In this document: positions 1,142 to 51,208 of the stretch, in pieces
How the letters are laid out: every line of letters starts with the position of its first letter
Numbering within the stretch: position 1 is the stretch's first letter
The notes under the pieces: generated by a model
The model's database searches: none
Seen by the model: only the letters and a program-made list of their open reading frames with translations
What the model was told of the DNA's origin: nothing
Made by a program: the position numbers and the translations under genes
NCBI GenBank assembly: GCA_017614995.1
Contig: JAGAAX010000048.1
Span: 1-51,208, forward strand
Length of the DNA: 51,208 nucleotides
DNA from: Spirochaetaceae bacterium
GTDB taxonomy: Bacteria > Spirochaetota > Spirochaetia > Treponematales > Treponemataceae
Direction: 5' to 3'

Positions 1142-1208
1142 GTCATGCTGAGCTCGTCTCAGCATCTGCTTGAGTTTTGAGCAGATTCCGAAACAAGTTC
1201 GGAATGAC
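1142..1208. repeat. Cloverleaf-type mosaic repeat, copy 1
   Basis: The outer frame is GTCAT...ATGAC with an inner ATCTGC...GCAGAT stem. The left arm is GCTGAG/CTCAGC and the right arm is TTCCGAA/TTCGGAA. It belongs to the same family as the elements at 4586, 5752, 41858, 43847 and 48539. It lies just after tRNA-Arg and before the convergent HAD gene. Confidence 0.8.
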
Positions 1209-4585: not shown

Positions 4586-4613
4586 GTCATTGTCGGGCTT
4601 GACCCGACAATCT
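4586..4613. repeat. Half copy of the mosaic repeat
   Basis: GTCATT, then arm GTCGGG, then CTTGA, then arm CCCGAC, then AATCT. This is the left half of the element family; no right half follows. Confidence 0.75.
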
Positions 4614-4636: not shown

Positions 4637-4677
4637 GCTGCCGGTTTTGCGTAAGCAAAAGCGGCGCTTTTCGCCGA
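4637..4677. repeat. Dispersed two-hairpin repeat, copy A
   Basis: Two adjacent hairpins. The first has stem CCGnTTTTGC against GCAAAAnCGG around GTAA; the second is GGCGCTTTTCGCC. The reverse complement of the whole 41-base unit recurs almost identically at 46994-47033, over 42 kb away. Confidence 0.75.
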
Positions 4678-4734
4678 TTGTGCTTTGTTTGTAGATTGGG
4701 CTGTTGCGAAAAGAAAAGTGCCGATAAAAATATT

Positions 4735-5751: not shown

Positions 5752-5813
5752 GTCATTGCCCGGCTCGACCGGGCAATCTAATGAGAGGTTGTCGGGTCAC
5801 GCCCGACAATGAC
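5752..5813. repeat. Cloverleaf-type mosaic repeat, copy 2
   Basis: GTCATT, left arm GCCCGG/CCGGGC, AATCT, a short loop, AGGTT, right arm GTCGGG/CCCGAC, AATGAC. It is placed between two convergent genes just after the Gfo/Idh stop codon, so it may also act as a bidirectional transcript end. Confidence 0.85.
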
Positions 5814-41824: not shown

Positions 41825-41958
41825 AAAAAAAGCGGAGAGGAAGTCTAAAATCATACTGTCATTCCGAACTTGGTTCGGAATCTCTGCACTAAATATAGTG
41901 TAGATGCTGAAACAAGTTCAGCATGACAATTCTTTTTATACGTCTCCCGCTTTTTTTT
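41825..41958 (+). terminator. Terminator stem of the redox operon with a repeat in its loop
   Basis: The left strand AAAAAAAGCGGAGAG (41825-41839) can pair, with one bulge, with CTCCCGCTTTTTTTT (41944-41958). The 104 bases between contain the complete mosaic repeat 41858-41927. The right strand ends in a run of eight T, as in a rho-independent terminator. Confidence 0.55.
41858..41927. repeat. Cloverleaf-type mosaic repeat, copy 3
   Basis: GTCAT, left arm TCCGAAC/GTTCGGA, ATCT, a central hairpin with CACTA/TAGTG, AGAT, right arm GCTGAA/TTCAGC, ATGAC. Its left and right arms correspond to the right and left arm types of copy 1 at 1142. Confidence 0.85.
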
Positions 41959-43744: not shown

Positions 43745-43800
43745 TGCAGAATTGACGTCATTCGTGCACTTGAAGCGGGAATCTCTCAAAAAATGCAGAA

Positions 43801-43846: not shown

Positions 43847-43908
43847 GTCATTATCGGGCGCGACCCGATAATCTACTTATAGATTGCCGGATCAAGTCCG
43901 GCAATGAC
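43847..43908. repeat. Cloverleaf-type mosaic repeat, copy 4
   Basis: GTCATT, left arm ATCGGG/CCCGAT, AATCT, short loop, AGATT, right arm GCCGGA/TCCGGC, AATGAC. The two arms differ in sequence yet each is perfectly self-paired. It sits between a terminator and the convergent GGDEF gene. Confidence 0.88.
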
Positions 43909-46185: not shown

Positions 46186-46970
46186 AAACAGCATTAACAA
46201 TTGCCGGCAGCGATTCTTCCGGCGGGGCAGGTATTCAGGCTGACATAAAGACAATGACCTGCAACGGCGTTTACGCAATGAGCGCAATTACGGCTTTAAC
46301 CGCGCAGAACACAACCGGCGTTCAGGGCATATTTGAAGTAACACCGGAATTTCTTGCCTTGCAGATTTCAAGTGTCTTTGACGATATCCGCCCGGACGCA
46401 GTAAAAATCGGCATGGTTTCTTCGCCTGCTTTAATCGACGTAATAGCGGAGCGGCTTGTGCACTACAAGGCGGAGAACATTGTGGTAGACCCGGTTATGG
46501 TTGCGACAAGCGGTGCAAAGCTAATCTCTGACGGCGCGGTTGAAAAGCTTAAAACAAAGCTGCTGCCGCTTGCTGTTTTGGTTACGCCCAATATTCCAGA
46601 AGCTGAAATTCTTGCAGAAATGCAGATAAAAAGCGCCGCTGAAATGGAAAAAGCCGCAAAAACAATAGCCCAAAAATACGGTTGCAGCGTGCTTTTAAAA
46701 GGCGGTCACAGCACAAATGACGCGAACGATTTTCTGTTTGATAAAAGCGGAAACACATTGTGGTTTAACGGCAAAAGAATTGACAACCCGAACACTCATG
46801 GAACCGGCTGCACGCTTTCAAGCGCAATCGCCGCAAATCTTGCGAAGGGCTGTACCCTTGAACAGAGCGTGAAAAACGCCAAAGACTATATCTCGCAGGC
46901 ACTAGCCGCCATGCTCAACCTCGGCAAAGGCTCCGGCCCTATGATGCACAACTATATCTTTTCGCACTAG
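46182..46970 (+). CDS. thiD: Hydroxymethylpyrimidine/phosphomethylpyrimidine kinase
   Basis: Performs two phosphorylations of the thiamine pyrimidine moiety. The ribokinase-fold protein of 262 residues opens with ALTIAGSDSSGGAGIQADIKT, the ThiD signature. The DPVMVATSG segment is near residue 105, VTPNIPEAEIL near residue 131, and the catalytic NTHGTGCTLSSAIAAN near residue 205 holds the Asp-replaced anion hole typical of the family. Coupled to the preceding HAD gene. No other thiamine gene and no recognisable TPP riboswitch are in the window, so it may serve salvage. Confidence 0.94.
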   Translation: MKTALTIAGSDSSGGAGIQADIKTMTCNGVYAMSAITALTAQNTTGVQGIFEVTPEFLALQISSVFDDIRPDAVKIGMVSSPALIDVIAERLVHYKAENIVVDPVMVATSGAKLISDGAVEKLKTKLLPLAVLVTPNIPEAEILAEMQIKSAAEMEKAAKTIAQKYGCSVLLKGGHSTNDANDFLFDKSGNTLWFNGKRIDNPNTHGTGCTLSSAIAANLAKGCTLEQSVKNAKDYISQALAAMLNLGKGSGPMMHNYIFSH

Positions 46971-46993
46971 CTTATTCTACAAATAAAGTCTAT

Positions 46994-47033
46994 TCGGCGA
47001 AAAGTGCCGCTTTTGCTTTGCAAAACCGGCAGC
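46994..47033. repeat. Dispersed two-hairpin repeat, copy B
   Basis: The reverse complement of the element at 4637-4677 with two or three differences. GGCGAAAAGTGCC and the GCTTTTGCTTTGCAAAACCGGC hairpin region are preserved. It lies 23 bases after the thiD stop and may act as its transcript end. Confidence 0.75.
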
Positions 47034-47112
47034 CCGTGTACACCCGCTGCCCTCATAAGTCTATGTACAGTGGCGAGAGTGCCCAGCCCGAATTTTGAAT
47101 TATTAGGATTTC

Positions 47113-47206
47113 GGTGGCTGAGCGTAGTCGAAGCCACAATAAGCAGAGGTTTTGTTAATAAAAATTGGAAAATCGGTCATTTCGACTCCGCTCAATAACC
47201 GATTTT
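47113..47206. repeat. Two inverted elements of a TGAGCGnAGTCGAA family
   Basis: Element 1 (47113-47137): stem GTGGCT/AGCCAC around GAGCGTAGTCGA. Element 2 (47169-47206): stem AAAATCGGT/ACCGATTTT around TTCGACTCCGCTCAA, the inverse of the same core. The core is kept while the stems differ completely. Confidence 0.65.
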
Positions 47207-47247
47207 CGCTAAAAAGTGCATTTTTTTAACTCGAGATTGAAACTACT

Positions 47248-47470
47248 AAATATCAAATGATAACTGCTTCCTTTTTGCGTTTTGGACGAAATATCATTTG
47301 ATATTTGCTTCCTTTTTGCGTTTTGAACGAAATATCAAATGATATTTGCTTTCTTTTTGCATTTTGAGCGAAATATCAAATGATATTTACCTGCTTTTCT
47401 CATTTTGGGCAAAATATCATTTGATAATTGGCAGAAATTTTTATATCCAATGAAATATCATTTGATATTT
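47248..47470. repeat. Six-copy palindrome array with 41-bp period
   Basis: Near-palindromes starting at 47248, 47289, 47330, 47371, 47412 and 47453, exactly 41 bases apart. Each is AAATATCA, then AA or TT, then TGATATTT (first and fifth copies imperfect on the right). Centres run AA, TT, AA, AA, TT, TT. The 23-base spacers are also related (GCTTCCTTTTTGCGTTTTG-like) and decay toward the right. There is no CRISPR-type spacer diversity and no cas gene. Confidence 0.9.
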
Positions 47471-47491
47471 GCTAATCCGGTATATTCTGTT

Positions 47492-48501: not shown

Positions 48502-48529
48502 AGATTGCCCAATCGAGTCGGAGAATGAC
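48502..48529. repeat. Decayed half copy of the mosaic repeat
   Basis: AGATT GCCCAA TCGAG TCGGAG AATGAC matches the right-half frame (AGATT...AATGAC), but the arms no longer pair well. It stands 9 bases before the full copy at 48539. Confidence 0.55.
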
Positions 48530-48538
48530 AAAAACGGT

Positions 48539-48603
48539 GTCATTCCCGCGCCTGACGCGGGAATCTTTCAAGAAAGATTATCGGGTCAAAGCCCGATAAT
48601 GAC
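48539..48603. repeat. Cloverleaf-type mosaic repeat, copy 5
   Basis: GTCATT, left arm CCCGCG/CGCGGG, AATCTTTC, loop, GAAAGATT, right arm ATCGGG/CCCGAT, AATGAC. The middle stem is 8 bp here. It lies in the gap between the lipoprotein start and the GGDEF-EAL stop. Confidence 0.88.
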
Positions 48604-48633
48604 AGGTTTGTGACGGTGAAGTACATTATCTTT

Positions 48634-48656
48634 CAAGTTTTGCGAAGCAAAACTTG
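48634..48656. repeat. Perfect 10-bp hairpin
   Basis: CAAGTTTTGC (48634-48643), GAA, GCAAAACTTG (48647-48656). A second pairing, GGTGCGC (48661-48667) with GCGCACC (48699-48705), lies between it and the GGDEF-EAL stop at 48708. Both may end the minus-strand transcript, although neither has a T-run. Confidence 0.6.
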
Positions 48657-48707
48657 CAGCGGTGCGCTAGATAAACTCTTTTTGTAGAACAAACTAATGC
48701 GCACCCG

Positions 48708-51208
48708 TTAGGCTTTTCGTGTGCCGAAGATTAGCTTGTCTTCGCCGTTTTCTTTTATGAGCACGCCGCGTTCCGTAACCATAAGAGGAAAACCGTTCAT
48801 CAAAATGCGGTGGCGGCTTGTAAAAAATCCGTCTTTTTCAATAGTTCTCAAGATGTTTTCTTTTGTGTGGCGTTTCTTGAACACTTCACGGTCTTCTTCA
48901 ACAATAGCCCAGTCTGCATTAACTTGTGCAATGGCAAAATAATCTTCGCCCTGTTCCTGAATGCCTATAGTCTTAAATTCAGATGAAGCGCGGTACTCAA
49001 TAAAGCTGTGGGTTTTCGGGTTGACTATGTAGATACAGATATAATCGCCGGAAAGAGCCATAAGTCTTGTATAGAGAAGCTGTTCCTGTTGAGCCTGTTC
49101 AAGCTGTACCTTCTGCCGCATCTGTACATCAACATTGCTTACACCGATAACAATGTGCCTTTTATTCTTCTGCATAGGCATGGCTTTCATGTTTACATAG
49201 ATTGGCACGCCGAATTTTAAAAGTCTGTAAGTATGCAGAAACGTACCCTGCTTTTCAATAGACATGATGATATTCTCTTTTGTAAAGTTTCTTATGAAAT
49301 CATCACGGTCTTCTTCATAAATATGGGTAATTGCATCTCTACGGCTTTGAGCAAAGAAATTTGTTCCATGCCGTTCTGTTGAAAGCTCTTCATCGCCAGC
49401 ATTCGAGGTATATTCAATAAATTCTTCTGTCTCAAGATTCACATAATAAAGGTTGAAATAGTCTCTTGAAAGGGCTCTTGCAATATTGGCATAAGTTTCA
49501 CCCTGAACAGCATCTGTAATAGAAAGAACAGCCACAACAACAGCAGATTTTTTATTGACCGGATCTTCAGAAATTTTGTGCGCATAATAATATGCCCTTG
49601 AACCGTCTGGAAGATTTTCATCAATAAAAAGCCTTTTGTTTTCTTTTGCGGTCTGCTTCAAAATCATATAAAAAGAAGCGCCTTCTCCCTGCAATATGGC
49701 TTTAATCGGAAGATTTTCGTTGTGAACCATAATTGAAAAATATCTCAGCATAAAATCGCGGTAAGACTGATTAGTTCTGGCATAACGTACAGTATCATCG
49801 TCGATTTCAAGAATAGCCATAGGAAGCGTATTAAAGAAATTGGAAAGCCCCTTTTCATCCTGTGTAAGTACGGAGAGGTCATGCAGGTTTATCCTTCCAA
49901 TCATTTCGCTGTATTGCGATTCAGCCGGGTTTTCAAAACCAATTTCCTTCTTAGCCTTGTATTTTTCAAGAATTGTCTCAAGCGGAATAGGTTTCTGGTA
50001 GTAATATCCCTGAAGTTTAGAACATCCTATTTCCTGAAGAAAAATAACCTGTTCTTCGGTTTCAACACCTTCGCATACAGTGTCTACACCCAGAGAAGCT
50101 GCCATTCTCATCAGCTCTGTCAGTATGATTTTTCCGTTTTTGCCCTTGTCAAGCTGACGCATAAAGCTCATGTCAAATTTGATTAAATCAAACGGTATAA
50201 GCTGCAGGACATTAAGAGAAGAGTAGCCGCTTCCAAAATCGTCCATCCAGACGCTGAAACCGTGCTTTTTGAAACGCTCAATCTGCGCCATCATAAACTC
50301 AAAGTCTCTGCCGAGAATGCTTTCAGTAATTTCAATATTGATTTTGTTGTGTGAAATTCCGGCATTATCAACTCTTGTATAGATTTCTTTGACAATATCG
50401 CAGACATCAAAATCTGAGCGCGAAATGTTTATAGACTGTGAAACTTCAAAAAAGCCGTTTGCTTTCATGAATTTCATCTTCTCGAGAACCTGCTCAAGAA
50501 TATAAAGGTCAACTTTGTAAATCAGATTTGCTTCTTCAAGAATCGGAATAAAATCTCCCGGAGAAAGAAAGCCCTTTACAGGATCAATCCAGCGGGCGAG
50601 TGCTTCTTCATCGCAGACACGCGTGTTTGAAGCACGGACAATCGGCTGGTAGTAGACTTTAATCCATTTTTCTTTTAACGCACGGTCAAGGTTATCGATG
50701 ATGTACTGCTTTTTTTCGTTTGCTTCTATAATGGAAATATCATGATAGCTGAAAGCAGATTCCTTAATCTTTTTGATTGAATCACATGCAGTTTTAGCCC
50801 TATCACATGCAATATTGATAGCAACATCTTCTGTATCGAAAAGGTAGATTCCTATGTGGAGAGTTATAGTCTGAGACTGTTCTTTGTTCTGTCCTAAGTC
50901 TTTGCATTCTTCTAAAAGCTTTTTTAGAACGTTTTCAAGATTTTCTTCTTTTGTGATAACAGCAAAATGGTCTCCGCTGACGCGGCAGCAGTTTTTAATG
51001 CCAAAAAAGGTGATAAGAATCTGGGCAAAAGACTGCAGAAGCGCGTTGCCTGCCTCAAAGCCAAATTTATGGTTAAAGACCTTCATGCCGTTAAGGTCTA
51101 TAAAAAGAAGAACCGGAAGTTCATGTGATGCTGTCATGCTTTCTTTTTTTGCCGTAGCAAGCCCCAGAAAGTGCATCATATTCGGCAGGCCAGTAAGGTA
51201 GTCGACTA
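48708..51208 (-). CDS. GGDEF-EAL protein with tandem C-terminal PAS-like repeats (5' end outside window)
   Basis: A c-di-GMP turnover protein. The reading frame is open to the window edge; the visible part begins VDYLTGLPNMMHF, the usual start of a GGDEF domain, so the ATG at 51179 is internal and the true start lies beyond. The GGDEF loop is degenerate (VSGDHFAVI), probably inactive. The EAL domain is intact: EALARW, SINISRSDF, EITES, WMDDFGSGYSSL, IKFDMSF and CEGVET, so phosphodiesterase activity is expected. After the EAL domain come about 400 residues with a PAS-like segment and two related repeats (NLYYVNLETEEFIEY and CIYIVNPKTHSFIEY). Sensors placed after the catalytic domain are unusual. 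Confidence 0.88.
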   Translation of the reverse strand, partial: VDYLTGLPNMMHFLGLATAKKESMTASHELPVLLFIDLNGMKVFNHKFGFEAGNALLQSFAQILITFFGIKNCCRVSGDHFAVITKEENLENVLKKLLEECKDLGQNKEQSQTITLHIGIYLFDTEDVAINIACDRAKTACDSIKKIKESAFSYHDISIIEANEKKQYIIDNLDRALKEKWIKVYYQPIVRASNTRVCDEEALARWIDPVKGFLSPGDFIPILEEANLIYKVDLYILEQVLEKMKFMKANGFFEVSQSINISRSDFDVCDIVKEIYTRVDNAGISHNKINIEITESILGRDFEFMMAQIERFKKHGFSVWMDDFGSGYSSLNVLQLIPFDLIKFDMSFMRQLDKGKNGKIILTELMRMAASLGVDTVCEGVETEEQVIFLQEIGCSKLQGYYYQKPIPLETILEKYKAKKEIGFENPAESQYSEMIGRINLHDLSVLTQDEKGLSNFFNTLPMAILEIDDDTVRYARTNQSYRDFMLRYFSIMVHNENLPIKAILQGEGASFYMILKQTAKENKRLFIDENLPDGSRAYYYAHKISEDPVNKKSAVVVAVLSITDAVQGETYANIARALSRDYFNLYYVNLETEEFIEYTSNAGDEELSTERHGTNFFAQSRRDAITHIYEEDRDDFIRNFTKENIIMSIEKQGTFLHTYRLLKFGVPIYVNMKAMPMQKNKRHIVIGVSNVDVQMRQKVQLEQAQQEQLLYTRLMALSGDYICIYIVNPKTHSFIEYRASSEFKTIGIQEQGEDYFAIAQVNADWAIVEEDREVFKKRHTKENILRTIEKDGFFTSRHRILMNGFPLMVTERGVLIKENGEDKLIFGTRKA

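Follow-up and report, generated by a model that had tools for sequence, protein, structure and literature searches.

The window, by which we mean the whole 51,208-nt stretch of DNA that was analyzed, carries a family of palindromic elements, among them the one under study at 43847 to 43908. Every copy listed in a preliminary description of this DNA is present at its reported position. A complete element reads TGTC, a first arm starting and ending in AT, CT, a spacer, AG, a second arm, and GACA (TGTC-[AT..arm1..AT]-CT..AG-[arm2]-GACA); copy 5752 deviates in having AGGT in place of AGAT. Class 1 elements have an 8-bp stem and the loop CTTGT, and class 2 elements a 9-bp stem and the loop CTTGA. 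The features of the window are as follows (G247 and G248 are relatives).

1142 to 1208, plus strand: class 1 dimer, GCTGAG arm and TCCGAA arm, directly 3′ of a tRNA gene (1060 to 1133)
4586 to 4613, plus strand: half element, single arm GTCGGG with tag TGTC
5752 to 5813, plus strand: class 2 dimer, GCCCGG and GTCGGG arms, flanked by convergent ORFs
41825 to 41958, plus strand: terminator-like outer inverted repeat (AAAAAAAGCGG / CCGCTTTTTTT) whose loop contains the 41858 dimer
41858 to 41927, plus strand: class 1 dimer, TCCGAA and GCTGAA arms; empty site in G248 and G247
43757 to 43784, plus strand: degenerate single arm; no arm at the same site in G248 and G247
43847 to 43908, plus strand: class 2 dimer under study, ATCGGG arm and GCCGGA arm, 10-nt spacer
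48502 to 48529, minus strand: degenerate half element
48539 to 48603, plus strand: class 2 dimer, CCCGCG and ATCGGG arms, within a block missing from G248

Three of the window copies are predicted to adopt cloverleaf-like folds as single strands (z −6.5 to −7.3), and an Rfam search of the window returned tRNA only. At the 43847 site, G247 has the full dimer and G248 the left arm only.

Abundance, kinship, and covariation of the elements

The fixed frame claimed for these copies is well supported by counts: a strict pattern occurs four times in the window (0.12 expected), and a looser pattern gives 81+89 matches in the genome (G000; 3.05 Mb in 64 contigs), compared with 5+5 for a reversed-pattern control. 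The same kind of pattern count across the order is noisy outside the family. From paired pattern matches, 36 complete elements were reassembled in the genome. Two of these (L074 4095 to 4181 and L085 4781 to 4862) form a third dimer class, GTCATTGCGAG..GAAGCAATCT. Single hairpins tagged at both ends are also found (L207 1867; L209 1260, minus strand; L211 6948) and resemble the 5′ strand of arm 1 fused to the 3′ strand of arm 2. At C4:75670, a site that this genome has in common with G244 and G247, the arm-1 loop of the latter two (L179 and L180) is enlarged by an insert of approximately 20 nt.

The full elements consist of two CGTC/TGTC-tagged REPs set head to head, members of a superfamily that a 2013 survey described (Di Nocera 2013, PMC3733652). 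In the part of that survey available to us, its members have the tag CGTC or TGTC, 8–9-bp stems with AT first, and 4–5-nt loops; they form head-to-head dimers (heterodimers being prevalent in families 2 and 3), are intergenic, occur in Spirochaetes among other phyla, and are without a dedicated transposase. The base before GTC is T in 87 of 93 dimers here and C in 6, the stems are 8–9 bp and start with AT, the loops are 5 nt, and the dimers are head-to-head heterodimers, as in families 2 and 3. Class 1 resembles CGTC-2 and class 2 CGTC-3, and they may belong to those families, with which they share tag, stem, loop, head-to-head architecture, and intergenic position. They differ from what the available text says of CGTC-2 and CGTC-3 in having mostly TGTC rather than the commonest CGTC, a CT tail rather than the short unpaired CCA that is mostly, not always, reported, near-obligate heterodimers that can be quantified, a composite unit with an outer repeat, and nested monomers.

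The resemblance to the Neisseria dRS3 repeats pointed out earlier is real at the level of the superfamily only: dRS3 is CGTC-1, with a 4-nt loop and mostly homodimers (PMC3733652, available part), in contrast to the 5-nt loops and heterodimers found here. Rickettsia RPE-4 and RPE-6, which the same text places in the CGTC superfamily, often lie within genes, whereas the present elements are intergenic. Searching the literature for sequence strings turned up nothing but unrelated work among the matches listed.

The inner arms were described as changing from copy to copy while remaining self-complementary, and our analysis agrees. Among 16 class 2 dimers that were selected on the frame, irrespective of complementarity, pairing holds in 99.5% of cells and 10 of 24 pairs have two-sided changes, a level reached by none of 500 shuffles; G-U pairs are few. 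Paired stem change also happens without movement: orthologous sites in different species have 10 paired changes and 15 others in 295 stem-pair comparisons, which are partly non-independent and include one or two doubtful site pairs. Since loops have 21 changes in 173 positions, the stems change more slowly than the loops. Some arm changes at orthologous sites are uncompensated, and upkeep after insertion is therefore imperfect.

The paired changes in place, as at C16:179903 and C35:16536, bear on the proposal that covariation comes solely from template switching during replication, which would perfect quasipalindromes with neither selection nor a structure-reading enzyme. Such switching has been studied at quasipalindromes in E. 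coli (PMC7202029, available part), and it accommodates these two sites but leaves the fixed TGTC tags, the dispersal of the elements, and the mutual avoidance of arms unexplained; as the sole cause it seems to us rather unlikely. The in-place changes also limit the proposed swapping of arms as cassettes: arm types do recur with many different partners, and one chimera was found (L203, a class 1 arm with a class 2 half), so that swapping retains support, but part of the variation among arms has arisen where the elements stand.

Unlike arms and the outer inverted repeat

Two features were overlooked in the preliminary description, the near-absence of same-arm elements and an outer inverted repeat. 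Within a dimer, the arms differ from each other almost without exception. Homodimers make up 1 of 92 same-class dimers, with approximately 13 expected under random within-class pairing (1/23 and 0/69 observed in the two classes versus 7.9 and 5.4 expected), and dimers with one arm mismatch or none number 1/23 and 1/69 (versus 11.3 and 17.4). Calculated with explicit structures, the energy of the two-hairpin cloverleaf beats that of a single long hairpin in 97% of elements with their real arms, in 62% with random partner arms, and in 0% with identical arms; the inter-arm helix is 11 bp or shorter in 89 of 90 elements. SbcD was found in this genome and in seven of eight genomes of the genus. Removal of an SbcCD type that favors heterodimers has already been put forward (PMC3733652, available part).

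The explanation that we consider best, at a probability of about 0.6, is that these are head-to-head REP heterodimers that are moved in trans by an enzyme reading their structure and that keep unlike arms through hairpin removal. The dimers would be small non-autonomous mobile palindromes, and the putative enzyme would recognize hairpin shape together with the TGTC tag, not the arm sequence. When single-stranded, a dimer is predicted to fold on a TGTC/GACA stem that bears a pair of short hairpins and often a small third one between them. Mismatches in the arms may be removed by propagation, by selection, or by template-switch correction at the time of replication. Two identical arms in one dimer would pair into a single unbroken 27-bp hairpin, which would be why the arms are kept unlike, and the energetics and the presence of SbcD suggest that like-armed forms are probably lost through SbcCD-type cleavage or deletion. 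The scarcity of like-armed dimers provides a quantitative argument for long-hairpin removal shaping a repeat family.

At least 14 of 93 dimers are flanked by inverted repeats stronger than 99% of control pairings (approximately one expected), and dimers with such an outer repeat occupy its loop. Many share the outer repeat GGGCTGTCTAANAAGTT, in a unit of approximately 117 bp; where a GGGCTGTCTAANAAGTT hit has a matching partner repeat, a REP lies inside every hairpin but one. The unit of approximately 117 bp is present in G244 with conserved linkers and unrelated flanks, and about 48 distinct composite sites (commonly 117–120 bp) show the same organization. When 84,980 species were scanned with a single exact pattern for the composite unit, which may miss diverged forms, the result was 27 stretches, all from Treponema, Spirochaetaceae, or Spirochaetales MAGs; phage records gave no match to the unit. 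MAG RGIG1579 has an entire REP monomer inside the arm-2 loop at no fewer than five sites among the matches listed. On the Treponema saccharophilum plasmids pTS1 and pTS2 there are a dimer and a half element with the expected linker and outer repeat. The composite unit goes beyond the picture of CGTC-tagged REPs given in the available part of PMC3733652. Simple insertion of dimers into ready-made terminators is weakened as an origin, many outer repeats and linkers being homologous between loci.

The recurrent length, the conserved linkers, the unrelated flanks, and the terminal inverted repeats (present in composite units only) are also features of a conventional MITE of a DDE insertion sequence, in which GGGCTGTCTAANAAGTT would be the terminal repeat and the dimer would lie inside by chance. 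Such a derivation is unlikely: target-site duplication is no higher than chance (none at 41 of 48 composite sites), no autonomous copy with GGGCTGTCTAANAAGTT ends was found in the stretches around the elements, most class 2 dimers have no detectable outer repeat, and DUF772, the sole DDE family searched, was not detected in the genus. In this lineage the loops of other hairpins hold dimers more often than chance predicts, and under the trans-mobilization of heterodimers that we prefer, one dimer within a hairpin would have become the unit of approximately 117 bp, itself now at many unrelated sites. More tentatively, and on balance doubtfully, the lineage may possess mobile nested hairpins of its own: the apical loops of palindromes would take up further palindromes, a dimer within an outer hairpin or a REP monomer within the loop of an arm, and a putative structure-reading enzyme would copy the nested whole as one unit without duplicating the target.

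Turnover between species and the search for a mobilizing enzyme

Four close species, three of them represented by drafts of 80–85% completeness, have 124, 142, 114, and 43 strand hits to a covariance model (R1), and the remaining four genus genomes have 0, 0, 0, and 8. The empty sites that the preliminary description had proposed looking for were found by joined-flank searches and alignments: many sites that hold an element in one species are vacant in others, and several are common to different species. At the 41858 site, G248 and G247 carry a plain short hairpin instead of the dimer; relatives have such a hairpin at several of the dimer sites. Judged from these comparisons, pairs appear to come and go between close relatives within the genus; no movement was seen directly.

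The positions of the dimers, 94 of 97 of which lie outside ORFs longer than 100 aa at a median of 37 nt past a stop codon, might also suggest devices acting at the RNA level (intrinsic terminators or 3′ stabilizers), with covariation reflecting selection on the transcript and not mobility. Several dimers lie in a hairpin loop with a T-run after the hairpin, and the few G-U pairs are compatible with a transcript. However, the arrangement of neighboring genes is close to that at other gaps (convergent at 28/80 dimers versus 42/142), close species lack the element at many sites, relatives have a plain short hairpin at several, and termination needs neither conserved TGTC tags, conserved loops, nor a two-arm design. 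A role of this kind as the full explanation is improbable.

A REP-type transposase, suggested earlier as a possible mobilizing enzyme, was not found in this genome, where no Y1_Tnp was detected; nor was Y1_Tnp detected in G247 and G248, so that three of the four repeat-rich genomes gave none, or in the high-copy genomes G076, G052, and G095. Within the order, 117 of 244 genomes contain Y1_Tnp; among them are G244, with one copy, and another genus member, G098. The overall design, two inverted REPs per unit, is that of the RAYT-associated REPINs and BIMEs, and enterobacterial GTAG-3 dimers are likewise made of unlike members (PMC3733652, available part). Mobilization of the present elements by a Y1 tyrosine transposase of the genome, in the manner of RAYTs, is nevertheless very unlikely: the tag is TGTC/CGTC and not GTAG, the adjacent RAYT gene is missing, and no paired CGTC arms flank 20 Y1 genes of the order (up to 1.5 kb on each side), in line with the lack of association reported in the available part of PMC3733652.

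Other candidates fared no better. Reverse transcriptase is encoded only in G248, and neither its distribution nor that of DUF772 fits the copy number. The ORFs of six element-rich loci suggested no mobilizer, a weak negative because partial sequences (up to 60 residues per protein) were read by eye. The available part of the 2013 survey (PMC3733652) gave no answer as to what mobilizes CGTC-tagged REPs, and none of later date was found in the literature searched. With a burst limited to four close species, sites both empty and filled, and a unit of defined length, the question has become testable, and a related dimer in the culturable T. saccharophilum JCM 32279 adds to this.

The window holds further repeats. 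A tandem array at 47245 to 47490 combines a 41-bp period with ATATCATTTGATAT palindromes and is matched in part elsewhere in the genus; it adjoins a dispersed repeat (47085 to 47244) with many genomic matches. Another dispersed repeat is present at 46957 to 47042 and 4653 to 4714, the two copies being mutually inverted, and has many matches in genomes of the genus. A third (48621 to 48709) shares with the 48539 dimer the block that is missing from G248.
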